Source: Armatimonadota bacterium (lineage in GTDB: Bacteria; Armatimonadota; Fimbriimonadia; Fimbriimonadales; Fimbriimonadaceae). Taken from it: DNA of 64,000 nucleotides. The position numbers and the translations under genes are program-made. The notes below the pieces were generated by a model, which had not been told where the DNA came from, made no database searches, and saw only the letters and a program-made list of their open reading frames with translations. Numbering within the stretch: position 1 is the stretch's first letter; each line of letters opens with the position of its first letter. This document shows positions 5,759-16,748 of this stretch, in pieces. The stretch is from the NCBI GenBank assembly GCA_018268395.1, contig JAFDWQ010000001.1, forward strand, positions 520,306 through 584,305. The letters run 5' to 3'.

Positions 5759-5797
5759 CCTCTGACGGGCGAGGGTGGTACAAATCGGAACACGCGC

Positions 5798-6550
5798 ATG
5801 CTCCAGATCGAAAACCTGGTCAAGGACTACCGGAAGTTCAGGGCCGTCAAAGGTGTGTCCTTCTCGGCCCGACCTGGCGAGATCGTCGGCCTGCTCGGGC
5901 CGAACGGAGCGGGCAAGACCACGTTGCTTCGGTGCTGTGCGGGGATTTTGAGGCCGACGGAGGGCCGGATCTTGGTGTCGGGAGCGGACATCGTGCGGGA
6001 GCAAGCGCCTGCGAAGTCCAAGCTCGCCTACGTCCCCGAAGTCCCTAGCCTTTATGAGTTGTTGACCGTTGACGAACACTTGAAGTTCGTCGCGATGTGC
6101 TACGACACGATGGAGCGTTACGATCAACTTCGGGACGAGCTCCTGGAGCGCTACGACCTGGCATCGAAGCGCCGTGACCTCGTCGCGACGTTGAGCAAGG
6201 GGATGCGGCAGAAGCTGGCCGTAGCCTGCGCGATGGTCCACAACGCCGAGGTCTTCCTCTTCGACGAACCGATGATCGGCATCGACCCGGCGGGCGTCGC
6301 CGAGTTCAAGAGGGAGTTAGGCGGCATCCGTGCGAACGGTGGCGCGATCTTGGTCTCGACCCACCTCCTCGACACGGCCGAGCGGTTGTGCGACCGGGTC
6401 GTCATCATGGCCAAGGGGGCGATCGTGGCCGAAGGCACGTTGGACGAGCTCAGGGCGTCCAGCCACATGGAGGGAGCCGACCTCGAGCAGGTCTTTTTGT
6501 CGTTGACCGAGGAGGCGGACGCTGCGACCTCTACTGTTCCTGTACGTTAG
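5798..6550 (+). CDS. ABC transporter ATP-binding protein (exporter)
   Basis: This 250-residue ABC ATPase has a full motif set: Walker A GPNGAGKTT, Q-loop region YVPEVPSLYELL, signature LSKGMRQKLA, Walker B VFLFDEPMIGIDP and the H-loop STHLL. The signature has Lys-Gly in place of Gly-Gly, as is common in ABC-2 type exporters. The ATG at 5798 begins MLQIENLVKDYRKF, the usual family start; the open frame continues far upstream only as antisense of the MoxR gene. Its end overlaps the permease gene that follows, so the two form one exporter. The substrate is unknown. Confidence 0.94.
   Translation: MLQIENLVKDYRKFRAVKGVSFSARPGEIVGLLGPNGAGKTTLLRCCAGILRPTEGRILVSGADIVREQAPAKSKLAYVPEVPSLYELLTVDEHLKFVAMCYDTMERYDQLRDELLERYDLASKRRDLVATLSKGMRQKLAVACAMVHNAEVFLFDEPMIGIDPAGVAEFKRELGGIRANGGAILVSTHLLDTAERLCDRVVIMAKGAIVAEGTLDELRASSHMEGADLEQVFLSLTEEADAATSTVPVR
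6510..6524 (+). promoter_or_regulatory. Shine-Dalgarno and CTG start codon of permease
   Basis: AGGAGG at 6510-6515 is followed after 6 nt by CTG at 6522. It lies inside the ATPase coding sequence. Because the permease frame has no other start codon for more than 200 nt of clearly coding sequence, this site decides the start. Confidence 0.65.
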
Positions 6551-8204
6551 GTCGATCGTCAACGGGGTCAGAAGGGCGTTCTCGACCCCGGTCCGTACGA
6601 TCGGCGTCCTGTTCTTCGTCGTCAGCCAGCTTTGGTGGGTCCCACGCGTCGCGTTCAACCCCACCACGTTCGACGACCTGCCCACGACCTTTCCTAAGCT
6701 GCCGTTTCCGCCCGTAGCCGTCATCGACGCGGTCGTCTTCGCCTTGTTCGCCGTCGTTTCCGCCCTTTCCACTTTCACGCTGTTCGGATACACGGGCACG
6801 TACCGTTCGGCCGACGTCGACGTCCTCTTCCCCACCCCGGTCAGCCCGAAGTCCGTGGTCGTATTCCGAGTCTTGAGGGACGTCTGGATCCAGACCGTCT
6901 TGCCGCTTGTCCTGGCCCTCGTCTTCTATCGCCCCGTCAAGATCGGATGGACGGGGCTGTTCACCGGAGTGCAGCACCCGGAATCCGCCAACTCAGTGTT
7001 CCGGGTGGGGATGATCGCTTACTTCATGTCCGCGATCGCGTTCGTGTGGCTGGGACACGGACTGTCGTTGGCCATGAGCCGGCCGGACGATCGGACGGAC
7101 CGGCTGCGGACACTGCTGACATGGGGTTGCGTGGCCCTGGTCTTGGTCCCTGCACTGATCGTCAACCTTCAAGCCCGGAACGTGTACCTACCGGACGGGC
7201 TCGTCCCGATCGCTCAGCAGGCCTGGTTGCGGACGGTCTTCCCACTTGCGACGGCCGCGACTTGGATCACGATGTCCGCGTTTACGGGCGATCCGACCGG
7301 AGCCTTCGTCGGGGCCAGCGTCCTGATCGGTTTCATGGTCCTTGGAGCCTGGCTGGCCACTCGGAGCACGGATTGGATGTACGAGCAAGCCGCGATGAAA
7401 GCCCAGGTCACGGAGGGCATCCGGGCCGCGGCGCGATCGGGCGGGGGCATGTTCGCGATGGCGTCCCTCCGGGCCCAGTCCGGCAAGCTCAAGGCCGGCA
7501 AATGGGGATGGTTCCAACGCCTGACCGTCCGCGGGCCGCTCGCGATGCTCTGGAAGGAGCTCTTGGTCTTCCGCCGGTCGGGGGTCTGGATGTTCGTCTT
7601 CAACCTGGCCCTCAGCCTCTTGATGGCCGGGCTGGCCTGCACCCTCATGGACAGACGGCCTCGGACGGCCGGCGTCTTGCTGCTGGTCATGGAGGCGGCG
7701 ATCATGATCGGCCCTGCCCTAGGGCAGTCCCAGGCCGGCTTCATCGAGAGCTTAAGGCGTATCGACCTTCTCAAGCCGCTGCCGTTCTCGTCGATGAGGG
7801 TCGTCCTTGTCGAGGTCGTCTCCAAAGCCGCGCCGCCGATCGTAGCGGCGCTGGGAGGGCTGATCGTGACCCCGTTCGTACGGTCGAGCATGGCGCCTGC
7901 GGCGATCGCAGGGCTCATCGTGTTCCCTCCGTTGACGCTAGCCCTTAGCGCGGTGTCGTTGCTGTTCGTCGTGTTGCTTCCGGACATCGAGGATCCGACC
8001 CAGCGCGGGTTCCGGGGGCTGGCGACGCTCTTGGGCATGGTCGCGGCCAGCGGCCCCAGCATCGCCGTGTTCTCGGCGCTTGTGGCCTTCAAGACCCCTT
8101 TACCGCTCGCCGCACTGCCCGCAGCCGTCTTGGCCCTCGGCGCGACCGTGCTCGTCGCCTGGCTGGCGGGCCGGGTCTACGAGACGTTCAACCCGTCCGA
8201 ATAG
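6522..8204 (+). CDS. ABC exporter permease, predicted CTG start
   Basis: This protein of about 560 residues has many membrane segments and partners the preceding ATPase. It resembles the putative ABC exporter family, whose members start with RxLLxLxxRS and a basic RxxR stretch. The frame is coding well upstream of the first standard start (TTG 6744), back to a stop at 6504, with no ATG, GTG or TTG in between. A CTG at 6522 gives MRPLLFLYVRSIVNGVRRAF and has a perfect AGGAGG (6510-6515) 6 nt before it. I therefore place the start at CTG, inside the ATPase gene. Membrane helices include residues near 30-45, 75-90 and 130-150. Confidence 0.85.
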   Translation: MRPLLFLYVRSIVNGVRRAFSTPVRTIGVLFFVVSQLWWVPRVAFNPTTFDDLPTTFPKLPFPPVAVIDAVVFALFAVVSALSTFTLFGYTGTYRSADVDVLFPTPVSPKSVVVFRVLRDVWIQTVLPLVLALVFYRPVKIGWTGLFTGVQHPESANSVFRVGMIAYFMSAIAFVWLGHGLSLAMSRPDDRTDRLRTLLTWGCVALVLVPALIVNLQARNVYLPDGLVPIAQQAWLRTVFPLATAATWITMSAFTGDPTGAFVGASVLIGFMVLGAWLATRSTDWMYEQAAMKAQVTEGIRAAARSGGGMFAMASLRAQSGKLKAGKWGWFQRLTVRGPLAMLWKELLVFRRSGVWMFVFNLALSLLMAGLACTLMDRRPRTAGVLLLVMEAAIMIGPALGQSQAGFIESLRRIDLLKPLPFSSMRVVLVEVVSKAAPPIVAALGGLIVTPFVRSSMAPAAIAGLIVFPPLTLALSAVSLLFVVLLPDIEDPTQRGFRGLATLLGMVAASGPSIAVFSALVAFKTPLPLAALPAAVLALGATVLVAWLAGRVYETFNPSE

Positions 8205-8249: not shown

Positions 8250-9377
8250 ATGCGCATCAGGGTTTCGTGGCCGTTCGTGGCGAGTCTGGCGGTCGTTTTG
8301 GGCGGTGCCTGGGGTGCCAAGCGGCTGTACACGGAATCCCGGCTCAGGGACTACCGGCCGACGCTCGTCACGCCGGGAAGGGTCTGCCTGGCGGCCGTGT
8401 TGCCGGAATCCCGGTACCGGATCATCATCTCGAACGGTATCGCCCATCTCGCTGAAATGACCGGCGACCAAGAGTTCGGCGCTCCCGACCAAGACGACAA
8501 GGAAGCGCTGGACACCAAGGCAAAACTCCCGATGAAGGAGACCTTGGCCGCCCTGCAGGGCGACCGCGGAGCCCTCGGAAAACTGGTCATGGCCGTCAAC
8601 AAGATGAAGTCGGAGGACCTCCCGACGACGCTCGTGGTCTGGACTTCCGAGGACGTCCAGAAGGCCCTGGACGGCGACACGGCCCTCCGGGCGAAGCTCG
8701 AAGACGACTTGAACACGCGTCTGGACGGCACTCCGTTGGAGTCCGTCAGGATCGGATCGATCGTGAATGGGATCGTGCTCGACTTGCCCGTCGACGTGAA
8801 AGTTCCGTTGCCGGACGGCGAGAAGACCTTGACGTGCCGGATCCAGCAACCTTATAAGACCCTGTTCGCCGGAGCCGTGAACGGGGAGATCGACAAGGTC
8901 TTCAACGTCGGCAAGGAGGCGTTGCTGGGCATGTACCGGGAACAGGCGAGGCAGGTCTTGGAGGGCGGCCGGCGCGAGGACGTCGCCGGGTCCTTGCGGT
9001 CGCGGATCGATCCGAAAGGGCGGGCCCACCTGTCCGAAGCCCCCGAGAGGATCCTGAAGAATTTCAAGATCCTGGTGAACGAAAGTCACATGTCCGGTGC
9101 ATCTTCTGTCAGCTATGAGGGGCCGAACCGCGCCATACTTGCCGATGTCACTTTGAAGCTGACTCAAGACGGACGGATGCGGCTCTGGAAGTACAGCCAT
9201 GAGAAGCCTGGTTTCCAGTTGTTGCTGATCGCGGACAACGTCGCGATCGCAGCCCCGAAAATCCGGACGGAGCTTGCAGGAGACGACGTGAAACTGACCG
9301 GCGTCCCAGCAGGGGAACGAACCGACGACGCCGTCCGGTTCATAAATGAGGCGGCAAAGGGATCGAAGGGAAAATGA
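8250..9377 (+). CDS. Membrane-anchored protein of unknown function
   Basis: I do not recognise this 375-residue protein. It has one N-terminal hydrophobic segment (residues about 7-25, PFVASLAVVLGGAWGA), likely an anchor or uncleaved signal, followed by a soluble domain of alternating charged and hydrophobic stretches. No catalytic motif is evident. A TAGACT -10-like box lies near 8224, about 20 nt before the ATG, and starts a run of co-directional genes. Its stop overlaps the next lipoprotein gene by 4 nt (ATGA). The tight coupling through to rodA suggests an envelope role, but this is inference only. Confidence 0.72.
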   Translation: MRIRVSWPFVASLAVVLGGAWGAKRLYTESRLRDYRPTLVTPGRVCLAAVLPESRYRIIISNGIAHLAEMTGDQEFGAPDQDDKEALDTKAKLPMKETLAALQGDRGALGKLVMAVNKMKSEDLPTTLVVWTSEDVQKALDGDTALRAKLEDDLNTRLDGTPLESVRIGSIVNGIVLDLPVDVKVPLPDGEKTLTCRIQQPYKTLFAGAVNGEIDKVFNVGKEALLGMYREQARQVLEGGRREDVAGSLRSRIDPKGRAHLSEAPERILKNFKILVNESHMSGASSVSYEGPNRAILADVTLKLTQDGRMRLWKYSHEKPGFQLLLIADNVAIAAPKIRTELAGDDVKLTGVPAGERTDDAVRFINEAAKGSKGK

Positions 9378-10141
9378 AGGACATGAAGCTCACTGTGGTG
9401 GCCCTGGGGGCCCTGACTCTGGCGTTGGCCGGCTGCAATTCCGGCGGCGGCAAGGGTTCGGCCTATAAGCCGAAGGCCGGCGAAAAGGTCGCCCCGGCCA
9501 CGGTCGCGGCAGGACAAGAAGCGGACCTGTTCCCGATGAAAGTCGGCAACACGTGGGTCTACGAGGTCAATGCGACGACCAACGGCCCGTCGGGCAACCG
9601 GAACAGCTCCGGCGAGATCACGTTCCGGATCACGGACGTCAAGGAAGTCCCGGACGGAAAGGAAGCCAAGATCGACGTCTCGACCGATGGAAAGCCGACC
9701 GACAAGCTGGTTTGGCGCCTGGACAAGGCGGGGCTCTATCAGGTCTCTGCTTCGGTCCGCGATCCGAAGACGGGCGCGATCCGTGAAGTCGCCTATGAGC
9801 CGCCGCTCCGCATTTTGAAGTTCCCGCTGAAAGAAGGCGGCGTCGAGACGCAGGACGTCTCGGGCGTGAGGGCCGGGGCCCAGCCGGGCCCGGACCATAA
9901 AACCGTCTCGTACCTCGGCTCTCAAGAGACGGACACCCTGATGGGGCGCATGTCCGCCGTCGTCGCTGAAGAGGAAGGCTCGTTCAAAGACAAGGACATC
10001 CAGTTCAAGTCTCTCTCGACCACCTACTGGGCACCGAAAGTAGGCCTGGTCCGGTATATCCAAGAGGCTTCGGCCGTCAACAAAGACGGGCGCCAGATCG
10101 TGTCCAACACGACCTTGAAGCTGAAGAGCCACCAGCCTTGA
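9374..10141 (+). CDS. Lipoprotein, tandem-family member 1
   Basis: This 255-residue predicted lipoprotein has lipobox LAGC with the lipidated Cys at residue 21. After a low-complexity spacer the mature part begins DLFPMKVGNTWVYEV, then a beta-rich region ending in YWAPKVGLVRYIQ. The same plan, with an early W-x-Y/W, a central hydrophobic strand and a late K-x-x-G-x-V-K/R, occurs in the next three gene products, which points to tandem duplication. ATG 9374 overlaps the previous stop; a second ATG at 9383 is also possible. The function is unknown; the tie to rodA suggests envelope or cell-wall work. Confidence 0.75.
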   Translation: MKDMKLTVVALGALTLALAGCNSGGGKGSAYKPKAGEKVAPATVAAGQEADLFPMKVGNTWVYEVNATTNGPSGNRNSSGEITFRITDVKEVPDGKEAKIDVSTDGKPTDKLVWRLDKAGLYQVSASVRDPKTGAIREVAYEPPLRILKFPLKEGGVETQDVSGVRAGAQPGPDHKTVSYLGSQETDTLMGRMSAVVAEEEGSFKDKDIQFKSLSTTYWAPKVGLVRYIQEASAVNKDGRQIVSNTTLKLKSHQP

Positions 10142-10872
10142 TGACCATGAAGACACTCCCGTTCCTTTTGGCCTTGGCCGCGTTTGCGGTCGGGTGCAAC
10201 AACGGCCCTACCGCCAAGATCGTAGGCTCGGGCGGTCAGGCGAAGGCAGACCCTTCCGCAGACGGCAAGCCCGCGGTGCCGACGGTGCCCGCCGACTACA
10301 AGCACGACGCTTACGAGTTGAACGGGTTCGAAAGGACGAAGCCGCTGAAGTACAACTTCGTCCAAGTCTTGGGCGAGAGCCCGAAGTCCGGGACGCAAGA
10401 GAGCGTCTTGAAGACGGTCGACGAAAAGGGTGCGCATTACACGGTGAAACGGGGAGCGGCCCTTGACGCGATCGGCGACGAAGAACTCCTTGTCAACGCG
10501 GGAGGCGTCTACCTGGTCTCGACGAGCCTCGGATCGCCGAAGGAACCCGTCCTGCTGATGCCGGCCAAAGTGACGGTCGGAACGGTCTGGGACTACGACT
10601 ACGTCCTCACGATGCAGTCGGGCGACACGCTGACGTTCAAAGGTAAGGCCAAGGTCGAGAAGGAGGAGAAGGTCAAAGTCCCGGGCGGCGAGTACGACTG
10701 CCTGCTCGTCAGCGAAACGGCGTCGATGGACCGCGGCGGCAATAAGGGAACGGTCTCGAGCAAGACGTGGTGGTCGAAAGGGACCGGCGTCGTCAAAATG
10801 AAGATGGAAGTCAAGGACGCGAAAGGCAAGATCGTCGCGTCGACGATCGATCTGGCCGGCACCGGAGAATGA
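10141..10872 (+). CDS. Lipoprotein, tandem-family member 2
   Basis: This predicted lipoprotein of about 243 residues has its lipobox ending AVGC at Cys19. Like its neighbours it carries an early VGTVWDYDY motif, a GGEYDCLLV strand with one Cys and a late WWSKGTGVVKMKME. The stop of the previous gene and this ATG share one base (TGATG), so reinitiation is likely. An ATG two codons later (10147) is an alternative. The spacer after the lipid anchor is rich in Gly, Ala and Pro. No known enzymatic motif is present. The function is unknown and is inferred from context to concern the envelope. Confidence 0.74.
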   Translation: MTMKTLPFLLALAAFAVGCNNGPTAKIVGSGGQAKADPSADGKPAVPTVPADYKHDAYELNGFERTKPLKYNFVQVLGESPKSGTQESVLKTVDEKGAHYTVKRGAALDAIGDEELLVNAGGVYLVSTSLGSPKEPVLLMPAKVTVGTVWDYDYVLTMQSGDTLTFKGKAKVEKEEKVKVPGGEYDCLLVSETASMDRGGNKGTVSSKTWWSKGTGVVKMKMEVKDAKGKIVASTIDLAGTGE

Positions 10873-10873
10873 C

Positions 10874-11482
10874 ATGTTGTCCGCCGTGCTCCTTGCGACG
10901 CTGAAGGGACAGACCGACGCTTCGGACTACTTTCCGCTGACGAAGGGCGTGTCCTGGACGTACGAAGTCTCGGGCTCGGGAACCTCGACCCGGTACGTGG
11001 ACTCCGTCGGTAACACGCAAACGATCGACGGACAGGATGCGACGCCGATCGTTTCGAAGGTCGGAGCAAAGGTCGACGGGAGCACGTTCTACCGGGTGAC
11101 CGCAGACACCGTCTACGTCGTCGCGTTCGAGCAGAACAAGCCGCTCGGCTCGCCGTATCCCATCCTCAAGTTCGGCTCAGGGTCGAACGACTGGACGTTC
11201 GATGGCGAGACGCAATGGCTCGGTACGTCGGCGCCGTTGTCGATGAAGGGCCGGGTCAAGAAGATCGGGCAACGCGACGTCCTGGGAACGAAGCGCGATG
11301 CGATCGAAGTGACCATTGACGCCATTATCGGTGCGAAAGACCAGCCCAACCTGAAGTCCAGCCAGGTTTACGTCTATGCGCGCGGCATCGGCCTCGTCGA
11401 GATGAAGGACACGATGAAGGTCAAGGACGTCAAACAGGTGACGGTCAAGAAACTCGTCGCGTACTCCGGGGGCAACGGGTGA
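10874..11482 (+). CDS. Exported or membrane-associated protein, tandem-family member 3
   Basis: This 202-residue protein belongs to the same tandem set: DYFPLTKGVSWTYEVSGSG near the N-terminus and YARGIGLVEMKD near the end parallel the neighbouring lipoproteins. Its first residues (MLSAVLLATLKGQ) form only a short hydrophobic stretch with no lipobox Cys, so export is less certain than for members 1, 2 and 4. GGAG precedes the ATG at 10874, one base after the previous stop. The end overlaps the next start by 4 nt (GTGA). I do not assign a function. Confidence 0.72.
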   Translation: MLSAVLLATLKGQTDASDYFPLTKGVSWTYEVSGSGTSTRYVDSVGNTQTIDGQDATPIVSKVGAKVDGSTFYRVTADTVYVVAFEQNKPLGSPYPILKFGSGSNDWTFDGETQWLGTSAPLSMKGRVKKIGQRDVLGTKRDAIEVTIDAIIGAKDQPNLKSSQVYVYARGIGLVEMKDTMKVKDVKQVTVKKLVAYSGGNG

Positions 11483-12120
11483 AGCTGTTCCCCGCCGTAG
11501 CCCTGGCTGCGGCGGTCGTGGCCATGGTCGGTTGCCTCAAAGGCGCGGCCAAGCTCCCGGATGAAGCCGGTGTCCAGGCCAAGGGCCCGAAGTACGAAAA
11601 CGCCGAGGCTTTAAAGCCGGACGTCTTGCCGTATGAAGCGACCCGCCTTCTCTTGGGAGGCACCGAAGTCCCCGTGACGATGTCGCGGAAGCAATCGGGC
11701 GAAACGGTCACGTTCGTCCTGGCCGCCCATTCGGAGACGCTCGAAGAGGAGCACTATGAAGCCAACGCGACCGGGTTCCGGTTCCTAGGAGCGACCGGCG
11801 AAACCTTCAAGCCTGCGATCCCGTTGGTCAGCTATCCCTTCCAAGTCGGAGAATCCTGGGAATGGACCGGAACGGCCAGCCTCGGGCCGAACACGAAGTC
11901 GGCGAGCGCCAAACTGGTCTCGTCCACGGAAACGCTGAATTTGGCGACGGGCGTGGCCGAGTGCGTCAAGGTCAACGCCTCGCTGACGATCGACACGGGG
12001 CAGGGCGGAGTCAGCAAACGCGAGCTCAAGTTTTGGTTCGAACCGAAAAAAGGGATGGTCCGCCGTGAGTTCGTCATGAGCTCGGCCCGGGAACCGAGAC
12101 CGCAGACAGAAGGCTCATGA
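11479..12120 (+). CDS. Lipoprotein, tandem-family member 4
   Basis: This 213-residue predicted lipoprotein has lipobox MVGC at Cys19. The mature domain has FQVGESWEWTG, ATGVAECVKVNASL and a late FWFEPKKGMVRREFVM, matching the plan of the three preceding genes. It starts with GTG at 11479, overlapping the previous stop, and ends in an ATGA overlap with rodA. It is the family member closest to the elongation-machinery gene, and this coupling is the main clue to its role. No catalytic residues are recognisable. Confidence 0.75.
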   Translation: MKLFPAVALAAAVVAMVGCLKGAAKLPDEAGVQAKGPKYENAEALKPDVLPYEATRLLLGGTEVPVTMSRKQSGETVTFVLAAHSETLEEEHYEANATGFRFLGATGETFKPAIPLVSYPFQVGESWEWTGTASLGPNTKSASAKLVSSTETLNLATGVAECVKVNASLTIDTGQGGVSKRELKFWFEPKKGMVRREFVMSSAREPRPQTEGS

Positions 12121-13223
12121 TCGTCGCGCCCGACGCGCGCGGCCCGTTCGCATCCGACATCAACCGGCCCGGCCGGGGACTGGACGTCTGGCTTATCGCA
12201 GGCATGGTCGTCCTGATCCTGGTCGGATTGGCGCTTCAGCACAGCATCGACCTCTCCCGCCAATCGGGCTACATGTTCCGCCAAGGTCTGTTCGCGGTCG
12301 TCGGCGTGATCGTCTTCCTGATCTGTGCAGCAGCACGGCCAGAGCGCCTCGAGCGCTTCGCTCCGATGCTCTATGGTGTCAGCCTCGTCGGCTTGCTCGC
12401 TGTCCTCGTGATCGGCGAAAACGTGAAAGGAGCCACCCGGTGGATCGACCTTGGGCCCTTCCAGTTCCAGCCGAGCGAGGTCGCCAAGGTCATTCTCATC
12501 GTCACTCTGTCGACGTACTACGCCCGACGCTGGGACCAGACGCACGAACTCCGGACGTACGTGGGATCGATCGCCCACGTGGCGCCGATCGTCGGCCTCG
12601 TCCTCGTCCAACCTCACCTGGCCGGAGCGATGTCCTTGATCGTGACGTGGCTCGCCATTTCGCTGTACGCCCGCGTCCCCTGGAAGTTCGTGTTCGCGAC
12701 CGTACTCGTCATCGCCGCCCTCGGCGCTTTCGCTTGGTTCACGCCCCGCGTCATGCCGCCGTACATGCGGTCGCGCATCGAGGCCAAGCTCAATCCAGAC
12801 CCGAAAGGGAACGCCTATCAGCAAGAGCGGGCGAAGATCGCGTTCGGAGTCGGAGGGGCGTTCGGCGTCGGTTACGGCAAAGGCGAGCAAAAAGCCGCGC
12901 GCAACATTCCCGAGCAGCAGAACGACTTCATTTTCACCGTCGTGGGCGAGGAAGGAGGCCTTGTCGGGGGCATCCTTGTACTGGGAGCCTTCCTGTTCTT
13001 CTTCACGAGGGTCTGGCTCGTCGGTTACCGGGCGGCCGAGCCGTTCGGGCAAATGGCCTCGGCCGGGGTCTTGGCCGTCCTTGGCTTCCATACGGTGGTC
13101 AACCTCGGCATGAACGTCGGTGTCCTGCCTGTGGCGGGACTATGGTTACCGTTTCTGAGCTACGGAGGCACCGCGCTGTGGATGTGCATGGCCTGCGTGG
13201 GCCTGCTCGTCGGGGTGAAATAG
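12117..13223 (+). CDS. rodA: RodA/FtsW-family (SEDS) peptidoglycan polymerase
   Basis: This 368-residue SEDS-family protein is a multi-pass membrane glycosyltransferase that polymerises peptidoglycan with a class B penicillin-binding protein. Signs are the ENVKGATRWIDLGPFQFQPS stretch near residues 100-120, QPHLAGAM, and the C-terminal NLGMNVGVLPVAGLWLPFLS with SYGG. These fit RodA (elongation) as well as FtsW; the length and lack of an FtsW-type tail favour RodA. The ATG overlaps the stop of the lipoprotein gene upstream. The last 78 nt overlap the convergent methyltransferase gene. No penicillin-binding protein gene is adjacent. Confidence 0.9.
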   Translation: MIVAPDARGPFASDINRPGRGLDVWLIAGMVVLILVGLALQHSIDLSRQSGYMFRQGLFAVVGVIVFLICAAARPERLERFAPMLYGVSLVGLLAVLVIGENVKGATRWIDLGPFQFQPSEVAKVILIVTLSTYYARRWDQTHELRTYVGSIAHVAPIVGLVLVQPHLAGAMSLIVTWLAISLYARVPWKFVFATVLVIAALGAFAWFTPRVMPPYMRSRIEAKLNPDPKGNAYQQERAKIAFGVGGAFGVGYGKGEQKAARNIPEQQNDFIFTVVGEEGGLVGGILVLGAFLFFFTRVWLVGYRAAEPFGQMASAGVLAVLGFHTVVNLGMNVGVLPVAGLWLPFLSYGGTALWMCMACVGLLVGVK

Positions 13224-14330
13224 CGCTCCGTCCTCCGACAATGAAACGATGACCGCCCTCCCGAGGGCAGTGGCGAGGCGCACGGGCACGGCGTTCCCGA
13301 TCATCCGGCCGATACCCACGAGGCTCTGCCGCCCCGCGCAGACGAACCGCCACTCTTCCGGGAAAGACTGAAGTACGGCCATTTCCAACGTACTCAGACC
13401 GCGGTTCTCCGTGGGATGAATGTAGCGGCCCTTCGTCGGATTGTACGAACTGGTGCGGACCGTGACCGACGGGCGGTCGAGCCGGAGCCTGCCGAACGTG
13501 TCCGCGCCCTGGTGCTTCCCGGACCGCCAGCACGGCGGCCGCAGTCGGTCGGGCAAGACCTTGAAGTTTTCGCCCGGGCCGATATGCCGCATCCGTTCCT
13601 TCACGGTCGCACCGATCCCCATGACGACGTTGTCCGGACGGTCGGGAGACCAGCGGCGCACGTCTTCCAACGCTTCCGCGACCGTACGGTGCCGCCCTGC
13701 ATGGGTCGGAGTCGGGAGCCGGGCCTCGCCGCACCGGGCGCCGATCAGGACGAACCGCCTTCGGTTCTGGGGGTCGCCGAAGTCGGCTGCGTTCAGGACC
13801 CCGGCGGCGAGCGAAAACCCCAGCGACTCGAGTCCTCGGATCAGGCGGTCGCGAGCTTCACCGTGTTTGGGCTGGTTGAACCCCTCGACGTTTTCGAAGA
13901 GGACCGACCGCGGAAAGATCTCCTCGACGAGCCGAAGATAGTGCCCCGCGAGATCGCCGTTGTGCGGGTCGCTTTCGCCGAGCCCCAGACCAAGGTTCGA
14001 ATACGATTGGCAGGGCGGACCGCCTGCGACCAGATCGAGGTCCCCGCGCCTCAGGCCCACGGTCTTCAAAACGTCGCTGCCGTCCAAGTCGCGGACGTCG
14101 CCGCAACCGCTTGACGATCGGCCCCCCACAAGACGCCATTCCGGACGGTTCGCCTTGAGCGTCGCCGCACAGTCCGCGTCCTTTTCAACGCAGGCCAAGG
14201 TCTGGAATCCAGCCCGTTCGAGACCCAAGTCAAGACCGCCCGCTCCGGAGAACAGGCTGACGGCGGTCCATGTCTGCTGAGGGGCCGGTTGCGGGGCCCT
14301 TCCGATGGTTCTTAGGTTCAAGGCGCACAT
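13146..14330 (-). CDS. Orphan DNA (cytosine-5) methyltransferase
   Basis: This 394-residue C5 cytosine methyltransferase transfers a methyl group from S-adenosylmethionine to cytosine in a DNA target. Motif I is SLFSGAGGLDLGLERAGF, motif IV GGPPCQSYS holds the catalytic Cys107, motif VI is ENV at 146-148, motif VIII QNRRRF is near 188, and motif X GNAVPV lies near the end. The target-recognition region (about 200-330) gives no clue to the site. I chose the ATG at 14330, just before motif I. No restriction endonuclease gene is adjacent, so it is either an orphan or a partner lies elsewhere. The 3-prime 78 nt run antisense to rodA. Confidence 0.93.
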   Translation of the reverse strand: MCALNLRTIGRAPQPAPQQTWTAVSLFSGAGGLDLGLERAGFQTLACVEKDADCAATLKANRPEWRLVGGRSSSGCGDVRDLDGSDVLKTVGLRRGDLDLVAGGPPCQSYSNLGLGLGESDPHNGDLAGHYLRLVEEIFPRSVLFENVEGFNQPKHGEARDRLIRGLESLGFSLAAGVLNAADFGDPQNRRRFVLIGARCGEARLPTPTHAGRHRTVAEALEDVRRWSPDRPDNVVMGIGATVKERMRHIGPGENFKVLPDRLRPPCWRSGKHQGADTFGRLRLDRPSVTVRTSSYNPTKGRYIHPTENRGLSTLEMAVLQSFPEEWRFVCAGRQSLVGIGRMIGNAVPVRLATALGRAVIVSLSEDGALFHPDEQAHAGHAHPQRGASVAQKR

Positions 14331-14468: not shown

Positions 14469-16748
14469 ATGAACGAGCGAGGCTCCACAAGGGCCGTCAG
14501 AGACAGCAGGATGCCAAAGGCAACGCCCCGACGCCGGACGGGCGCGGCGGCCACGCGCCCCGTGCCGAAGAACCCCCACCGCAACACCGACGCGTTAGGC
14601 ATCGTCCTGATCGCGGTCGCCCTTGCGACGGGGCTCGCCCTCTGGGCAGGAAACGGCGGCATCATCGGCGACGGTCTGGCGGGAATGTTCCGGACGCTGG
14701 TCGGACAAGCCGCGTGGCTCGTCCCCGTCTGCATCGGGTTTGCGGGCGTCTCGATGTTGGCGGGCCGGACCAAAGTCCAGGTCGGGCGCGTTACGCTGGG
14801 CGCGTTCCTCGTCTTTTGCGGCGTCGTGGCCTTTTTCGCCCGAGCCTGGGAGGGAGACTGGTTCGACCCGGAGACCGTCAGTCTGAGCGGCGGGTACGTC
14901 GGAGCCGTCGTCGCTTGGGCGTTCCAGAAGCTCCTGGGCGGAGGTATGGCGATCGGGTTCGTCGCTACGTCCTTGGTCGGCCTTGTCCTGTGCCTGGATT
15001 CCCCCGTCCACACGTTCCTCGCCGCGCTCGAAGAGCAACGGCGGCAGGCTGCGATCGAACGGCAGAAGCGCGCGGCCCTGGCCAAACCCGTGAAGACCGT
15101 GGGCGACGATGGCAAGGTCACCGCCAAACGCGCGATCGTCAACCTCCCTGAAGACGACGACGAACCTGAGCCCGCTCCCGCCGTCCCGGAGGCCCCGCGC
15201 AAACCGGAGCGGCCCAAGGTGAACCTTGAACCCGTCGTACCCAAGGCGACCGAGGCCGAACTCAATTTCCAAACCTCGCGAGAAGGCTATGAGCTCCCGC
15301 CGATGAACCTGCTGACGGAGCCGAACAACAAGGCGAAGCGCAGTAAGGAAGAGATGGAGCGCAACATCCGGACTCTGGAGCAGACGCTCGAGCAGTTCGG
15401 TATCGACGCCAACGTGGTCGAAGTCGCGACCGGTCCGACCATCACGCGCTACGAGCTTCAACTCGGTCCAGGCATCCGGGTCAACCGCATCACCGCGCTT
15501 GGAGACAACATCGCGATGAACCTGGCCGCGAGCCACGTCCGCGTCGAAGCCCCGATACCCGGAAAGAACGCGATCGGCGTCGAAGTGCCGAACGCGGCCC
15601 GGGCGATGGTGACCTTGCGCGAAATGTGCGAGTCGCTCGAGTTCCACTCCGACGACCTCAAGCTCGGCGTAGCGTTAGGCAAGGACGTCAGCGGCACGCC
15701 CAAATACGCAGACTTGACCCGCATGCCCCACGTCCTCGTGGCGGGCGCGACCAACAGCGGTAAGTCGATCTGCCTGGCCACGATGATCATGTCCCTCATC
15801 CTGAGGCACACCCCGAAAGAAGTGCGCCTTGTGATGATCGACCCCAAGCGCGTCGAACTCGCCCTCTTCGAGAACCTGCCCCACTTAATGTGCCCGGTCG
15901 TCAAGGACGTCAAAGAAGCAGCGGGCGTCTTGCGCGCGGTCGTGCGGGAGATGGAGCGGCGCATCGAGAAGTTCTCGGACGTCGGTGTCCGCAACATCGA
16001 CGGCTGGAACAACAAGGTCAACTTCGAGGACAAGCTTCCGTACATCGTCGTCATCCTCGACGAGATGGCCGATTTGATGGTGCAGGCCCAGGCCGAAGTC
16101 GAAACGAGCATCATGCGCCTCGCGCAGCTCGCCCGGGCGACCGGCATCCACCTCGTCCTTGCGACCCAACGGCCCTCGGTCGACGTCATCACGGGCACGG
16201 TCAAGAACAACATCCCCTCGCGGATCGCCTTCGCCGTCTCGTCGCAGGTGGACTCAAGGACGATCCTGGACCAAGGCGGCGCGGACAAGCTCATCGGCAA
16301 AGGCGACATGCTCTTCATGCCGATCGACATGAACAAGCCCGTGCGCCTGCAGGGCTGCTATGTCAGCGAGAAAGAGATCGAGGACGTGTGCGATTTCTGG
16401 CGACGCCAGGGCCGCCCGCAATACGTTCTCAACCCAGTCCAGATCGCCATCGAGGAGAAGGAGACCGCGATGCGCGAGGAAGAGGAGTCGGACGAGCATT
16501 GGGAAGACGCCGTCCGCTTCGTCGTCTCGCGCGGCGAGGCCTCGACCTCGATGCTCCAGCGCAAGTTCTCGATCGGCTTCCAGCGAGCTTCGCGACTTTT
16601 GGACTTGATGGAGTCGCGGTCGATCGTCGGGCCTCGCGACGGCCCACGTCCCCGCGAAGTCCTGATCGACGCGCTGCAGGTCGAACACATGTTCAGCGGA
16701 GGTTCGGCTGCGCCGTTCGATCCGGACGAGTGGATCGACGAAGAGTAG
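14469..16748 (+). CDS. ftsK: DNA translocase FtsK/SpoIIIE
   Basis: This 759-residue DNA translocase acts in chromosome segregation at the division septum. Four N-terminal membrane segments lie in residues 35-175. A fairly short linker follows, then the motor: Walker A GATNSGKS near residue 423, Walker B YIVVILDEMADLM near 523, and the ATQRPS stretch. A C-terminal winged-helix gamma domain (DAVRFVVSRGEASTSMLQRK) would read KOPS-like sequences. A TAGACT -10-like box near 14426 precedes the ATG. No strong Shine-Dalgarno sequence is seen. It is divergent from the methyltransferase gene. Confidence 0.96.
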   Translation: MNERGSTRAVRDSRMPKATPRRRTGAAATRPVPKNPHRNTDALGIVLIAVALATGLALWAGNGGIIGDGLAGMFRTLVGQAAWLVPVCIGFAGVSMLAGRTKVQVGRVTLGAFLVFCGVVAFFARAWEGDWFDPETVSLSGGYVGAVVAWAFQKLLGGGMAIGFVATSLVGLVLCLDSPVHTFLAALEEQRRQAAIERQKRAALAKPVKTVGDDGKVTAKRAIVNLPEDDDEPEPAPAVPEAPRKPERPKVNLEPVVPKATEAELNFQTSREGYELPPMNLLTEPNNKAKRSKEEMERNIRTLEQTLEQFGIDANVVEVATGPTITRYELQLGPGIRVNRITALGDNIAMNLAASHVRVEAPIPGKNAIGVEVPNAARAMVTLREMCESLEFHSDDLKLGVALGKDVSGTPKYADLTRMPHVLVAGATNSGKSICLATMIMSLILRHTPKEVRLVMIDPKRVELALFENLPHLMCPVVKDVKEAAGVLRAVVREMERRIEKFSDVGVRNIDGWNNKVNFEDKLPYIVVILDEMADLMVQAQAEVETSIMRLAQLARATGIHLVLATQRPSVDVITGTVKNNIPSRIAFAVSSQVDSRTILDQGGADKLIGKGDMLFMPIDMNKPVRLQGCYVSEKEIEDVCDFWRRQGRPQYVLNPVQIAIEEKETAMREEEESDEHWEDAVRFVVSRGEASTSMLQRKFSIGFQRASRLLDLMESRSIVGPRDGPRPREVLIDALQVEHMFSGGSAAPFDPDEWIDEE

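Follow-up and report, generated by a model that had tools for sequence, protein, structure and literature searches.

What is rodA, the gene for a SEDS peptidoglycan polymerase, doing at the end of a run of lipoprotein genes in a member of the Fimbriimonadaceae, a family of Armatimonadota (order Fimbriimonadales) from soil and water that has been little studied? The window, the whole stretch of 64,000 nucleotides analysed, is part of contig 1 of a 3.7 Mb genome, and the run within it is on the + strand throughout. It opens with S (8250-9377), encoding an anchored SecD-P1-like protein, and continues with A (9374-10141; lipobox LAGC) and B (10141-10872; TTG at 10138 or ATG at 10147 being possible alternative starts), both encoding lipoproteins of a DUF3108-like family with a predicted YmcC fold; C (10874-11482), encoding a family member that is secreted and not lipidated; D (11479-12120; lipobox MVGC), again encoding a lipoprotein of that family; and rodA (12117-13223; PF01098, E 1e-73). 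Read from the sequence, four of the five junctions overlap: ATGA between S and A (9374-9377), TGATG between A and B (10139-10143), GTGA between C and D (11479-11482) and ATGA between D and rodA (12117-12120); B and C are separated by a 1-nt gap (TGAcATG). The original prediction was accurate in its gene positions and overlaps, and in heading the run with an anchored protein, S, which has one N-terminal TM helix and is colinear with A-B-C-D-rodA. A promoter scan returned 0 sites, and a terminator scan 10 where 5.7 were expected.

The polymerase gene itself has its closest relatives in Armatimonadota/Fimbriimonadaceae and scores 292 bits with the rodA model TIGR02210, under the equivalog cut-off of 336.7, versus 270 with the ftsW model. 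The strongest other SEDS gene of the genome sits between murD-like and murG-like genes, a setting that identifies it as ftsW. The usual partners of rodA are mreBCD and pbp2; here both lie on contigs other than that of rodA, which has therefore parted from them and joined S-A-B-C-D instead. Upstream of S are genes for an ABC transporter ATPase (5792-6550, + strand; PF00005, E 1.7e-31) and an ABC exporter permease (6519-8204, + strand; PF16962 ABC_export, E 1.8e-37), the start of neither being fixed, and downstream is ftsK (14511-16748, + strand; FtsK_SpoIIIE, E 1.2e-59). Between rodA and ftsK the window holds a C5-cytosine DNA methylase gene (13146-14330, - strand; PF00145, E 3.5e-54) that shares about 78 bases with the 3' end of rodA, unlike many relatives, in which ftsK directly follows rodA.

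By sequence comparison A, B, C and D are one homologous family, beyond chance. Pairwise blastp gave E values of 3e-4 to 2e-3; iterative profile searches of 61 rodA neighbourhoods, seeded with each of the four, converged on the same ~190 ORFs; and hhalign group-to-group probabilities among them were 95.3-99.4% (A versus B 99.4%, A versus C 98.7%, A versus D 99.0%), compared with at most 1.7% for S as control. The relatedness originally proposed was borne out on all three counts, and the proposed motif plan in part: a late G-x-V motif is present in all four, one of its glycines being the sole invariant column in 28 aligned sequences, but the early VGxxW-x-Y motif (G-x-x-W-x-Y) occurs in A and C only, its counterpart lying centrally in B and D (VGTVWDYDY and VGESWEW). 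By a simple pattern, a lipobox recurs in orthologues of A (41/48), B (49/53) and D (38/49), and in none of the 40 orthologues of C, which has a signal-like N-terminus.

The fold family to which these proteins belong is already known but functionally obscure. B matches PF21347 (DUF3108-like; E 2e-9, 37.9 bits against a cut-off of 27), and A, C and D join the DUF3108-like/DUF3108 families (PF21347, PF11306) by profile, the matched part being the late G-x-V strand. PF21347 alone gives D 13.5 bits, under the cut-off, finds no match in A or C, and matches 9 of 28 pooled family members at E<=0.01; what further distinguishes this locus from other DUF3108-like proteins is the presence of four paralogues in fixed order with rodA. 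A Foldseek search with the structure modelled for B (pLDDT 88) retrieved the Bacteroidales lipoproteins 4fvs (E 3.6e-7) and 3fzx (7.8e-7) and the E. coli lipoprotein YmcC/GfcB (2in5, 2.2e-4), with TM scores of 0.36-0.58 and identities of ~11-13%. B is thus predicted to have the YmcC/GfcB fold, and a YmcC-like fold for A, C and D would follow from their profile homology to B, so that the common plan expected of the four withstood profile-profile comparison of all four and structural comparison of B. A tree of 100 sequences recovered one supported clade for each of A, B, C and D, every one of them including sequences from a sister family (support 97/97 for A and 100/100 for D), and the duplications are therefore older than the split between the two bacterial families. 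The tandem origin originally proposed is supported, but the duplications are ancient, and recent tandem duplication is ruled out.

S differs from its neighbours. It matches PF22599 (SecDF_P1_head) at E 6e-4, under the cut-off, and its model (pLDDT 81) matches the SecDF P1 structure 3aqo at E 1.3e-4. Like SecD it has a TM1-P1 layout with a C-terminal P1-like domain; unlike SecD its model has a single N-terminal hydrophobic helix (residues 7-34) with no others evident, and lacks the multi-TM RND-type membrane domain. A detached SecD P1 arm of this kind might receive exported proteins, periplasmic domains of the Rod complex among them, and pass them on to the lipoproteins, which would fold them or control their quality. 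The match of S to SecDF P1 in both sequence and fold would suit such a role, as would the lone S homologues found across the phylum, solitary in the loci examined, but S is a weak relative, a better SecDF_P1_head match elsewhere in the genome, a long frame of 867 aa, is presumably the real SecD/SecDF, and no sec genes were seen near lone S genes in the loci examined outside the order. We regard assistance with folding or export as very improbable. Lone S homologues in other Armatimonadota families (L189, L191, L198, L187) often have beside them an aminotransferase-like gene (in L187, of class V according to Pfam) or genes for other enzymes, and in some f3 genomes a lone S precedes an MqnD-like gene.

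We surveyed the neighbourhood of rodA across the Fimbriimonadaceae, and the linkage is kept, as originally expected. Of 54 sampled loci, 53, from 28 genera, have colinear S-A-B-C-D-rodA, some of them lacking A, C or D; L103 (G015), for example, reads S-B-C-D-rodA, S and B being ~200 nt apart with A missing. The cluster is tight, with junctions mostly of <=20 nt and rodA as its last gene; the D-rodA distance is <=20 nt in 45 of 49 loci, 22 of them overlaps of -4/-1. It has stayed colinear while B orthologues diverged to ~20-30% identity. An S orthologue is present in 80 of 85 genomes, and the five genomes that lack it comprise three that are incomplete and two that are reduced (G067 and G068, the latter at L144; 1.5 Mb, 97% complete), which keep rodA and mreC while S and the lipoproteins are absent. 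One of these two is the single exception among the 54 loci; apparent breaks of the run in draft genomes are accounted for, in the cases checked, by contig ends. In G051 rodA is present twice, with a separate S-B-C-D at each copy, and since the nearest relatives of the second-copy rodA and S belong to its own genus (46-48%), co-duplication is a plausible explanation of the second cluster, rather than contamination. The two arrangements, at L208 (C64) and L137 (C46), are ABC-permease-S-B-C-D-rodA and S-A-B-C-D-rodA, and the rodA copies are 46% identical. We conclude that the pairing of S-A-B-C-D with rodA is real and old, and hence that these proteins probably help to coordinate cell-envelope growth.

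Other neighbours are less constant: of 53 loci, 31 have the ABC ATPase upstream of S, 32 the exporter permease directly upstream of S, and 28 ftsK no more than 4 kb downstream of rodA. The exporter's frequency rules it out as an obligatory partner. Its presence nonetheless invites a reading in which the exporter, together with S and the YmcC-fold proteins, carries a cargo of polysaccharide, lipid or lipoprotein from the inner to the outer membrane by a GfcB-like or Lol-like logic, C serving as soluble carrier and A, B and D as outer-membrane acceptors, and in which rodA is merely co-transcribed, since envelope growth needs balance. The fold predicted for B is that of GfcB, which serves group 4 capsule export (PMC8592465); the exporter also adjoins S in G006 and lies near it in G111; and one soluble and three lipidated, beta-rich paralogues recall LolA/LolB, the Pfam model for LolA finding nothing in the window genome. 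Each of these points has its counterpart. The exporter was not found beside S in 21 of 53 loci (the contig being too short in 3 of these), fewer links than rodA has. No capsule genes were seen among the annotated neighbours: homologues of gfcC, gfcD and wza/wzc are missing from the operon, whose neighbours are the ABC exporter, S, the paralogues, rodA and ftsK, and although the gfc operon also encodes a soluble partner, GfcC is a beta-grasp protein (PMC8592465) where C is a paralogue. The LolA model has no match in A, B, C or D, and Foldseek places B with YmcC-fold entries in preference; the apparent absence of LolA from the genome is itself a weak argument, as the model gives just weak matches anywhere in the order, and we considered C as a LolA replacement with that unreliability in mind. 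Envelope transport, the main rival of a role in the Rod system, is in our judgement a rather unlikely explanation of the cluster, though the fold and the exporter neighbour suit it almost as well as they suit that role.

Beyond the family the linkage loosens. In the sister family f2, S-A-B-C-D is present but usually apart from rodA, and linkage to rodA is confined to Fimbriimonadaceae plus one loosely linked sister genome (G001), in which the block is followed by MoxR, a glycosyltransferase, dacB (D-Ala-D-Ala carboxypeptidase), a bcp-like gene and then rodA. Parts of this MoxR-glycosyltransferase-dacB-bcp-like series also occur in further f2 genomes, and in G008 a gene recognised as dacB by sequence resemblance lies near the block. 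In G111, from another family, S-A-C-D stands between a nearby ABC exporter and mreBC, the latter ~5 kb away. Universal rodA linkage across the order is ruled out by the unlinked sister-family blocks and by the reduced genomes without the block, and on both grounds RodA is not the block's strict and sole associate. The family first envisaged as a dedicated companion of rodA keeps that linkage in Fimbriimonadaceae but is mostly unlinked in sister families and absent from two reduced genomes. This distribution might also reflect a neutral or dosage-related operon, in which S-A-B-C-D and rodA have unrelated envelope jobs, were joined once in the family ancestor and were kept together for common expression: being a single state specific to one clade, the linkage strictly calls for one or two joining events, and in sister families the block adjoins different genes (MoxR, glycosyltransferase, bcp-like). 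Such an origin is decidedly unlikely given that the cluster persisted through 28 diverged genera despite turnover of the flanking genes, was apparently co-duplicated in G051, and has a further family member at mreBCD.

That member came from a sensitive whole-genome search with a pooled family profile, which found exactly five members, four of them beside rodA. The fifth DUF3108-like protein (L224:9548-10168; G000:C3, ~382547-383167) is encoded downstream of mreBCD-gdhA, ~3.4 kb from mreD; by simple proportion, the chance that a random gene falls no more than 5 kb from mreBCD, upstream or downstream, is ~0.3%. Family lipoproteins that are related to one another are also encoded downstream of mreBCD-gdhA in one genome from the same genus (G042) and two from the sister family (G002 and G007). 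The arrangement is scattered, being present at 4 of 20 mre loci in addition to the S-A-C-D of G111, and the window genome's copy, different or highly diverged, is no clear orthologue of those in G042, G002 and G007, so that the clue to a Rod role is supportive, not decisive.

In the reading that we tentatively favour, S-A-B-C-D is an accessory to the Rod (elongation) system of diderm Fimbriimonadaceae, a module working on its periplasmic and outer-membrane side; the cultured Fimbriimonas ginsengisoli, of the same order, is rod-shaped with a presumed diderm envelope (PMC4072686). S would be the inner-membrane anchor with a SecD-P1-like arm, C a soluble subunit, and A, B and D lipoproteins, probably of the outer membrane. 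The YmcC-fold proteins would probably hetero-oligomerise, as lipoprotein GfcB does with soluble GfcC at an outer-membrane protein in the GfcB-GfcC-GfcD assembly (PMC8592465), a precedent indicating that a YmcC-fold lipoprotein can work in a hetero-complex. Together with S they would bridge both membranes through the wall, and the module might set when or where RodA-PBP2 is active in synthesis, in response to the condition of the outer membrane, by a logic like that of Lpo on PBP1A/1B. Lpo outer-membrane lipoproteins activate or control PBPs, which are peptidoglycan polymerases (PMC9593243). The likeness to LpoA/LpoB is one of functional analogy, since their targets are class A PBPs and the searches run gave no sequence or fold link; as analogies, the GfcB and Lpo precedents would not prove the case for a Rod module.

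In favour of this Rod-system reading are the 53 colinear loci in 28 genera despite the divergence of B, a linkage to rodA tighter than that to the exporter or ftsK, the paired clusters of G051, the family genes at mreBCD-gdhA in the window genome and in G042, G002 and G007, the S-A-C-D near mreBC in G111, and dacB near the block in G001 and G008. Against it are the sister-family blocks unlinked to rodA, the two reduced genomes that keep rodA and mreC without the block, the exporter neighbour, which points to transport, the characterised YmcC-fold relative, which serves capsule export, and the patchiness of the mre-linked gene with no clear orthologue of the window copy. To our knowledge no YmcC-fold protein touches peptidoglycan synthases. 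The stronger proposal, that a lineage-specific outer-membrane YmcC-fold complex directly regulates RodA in the manner of Lpo while a further member acts at MreBCD, we think unlikely. The original suggestion of an undescribed part of wall synthesis is thus kept as a possible role, helped by the fifth member at mreBCD and by dacB near the sister-family block. We found no description of a four-paralogue block clustered with rodA in the literature searched, which lay largely outside subscription journals.

Class A PBPs have LpoA/LpoB, and we know of no outer-membrane lipoprotein regulator of RodA-PBP2. With a conserved rodA-linked YmcC-fold cluster in diderm bacteria whose phylum is distant from Proteobacteria, outer-membrane control of RodA becomes directly testable. 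The cluster also lends a functional context to the DUF3108/YmcC-fold lipoproteins, whose structures have been solved and for which, as far as we know, almost no activity has been established.
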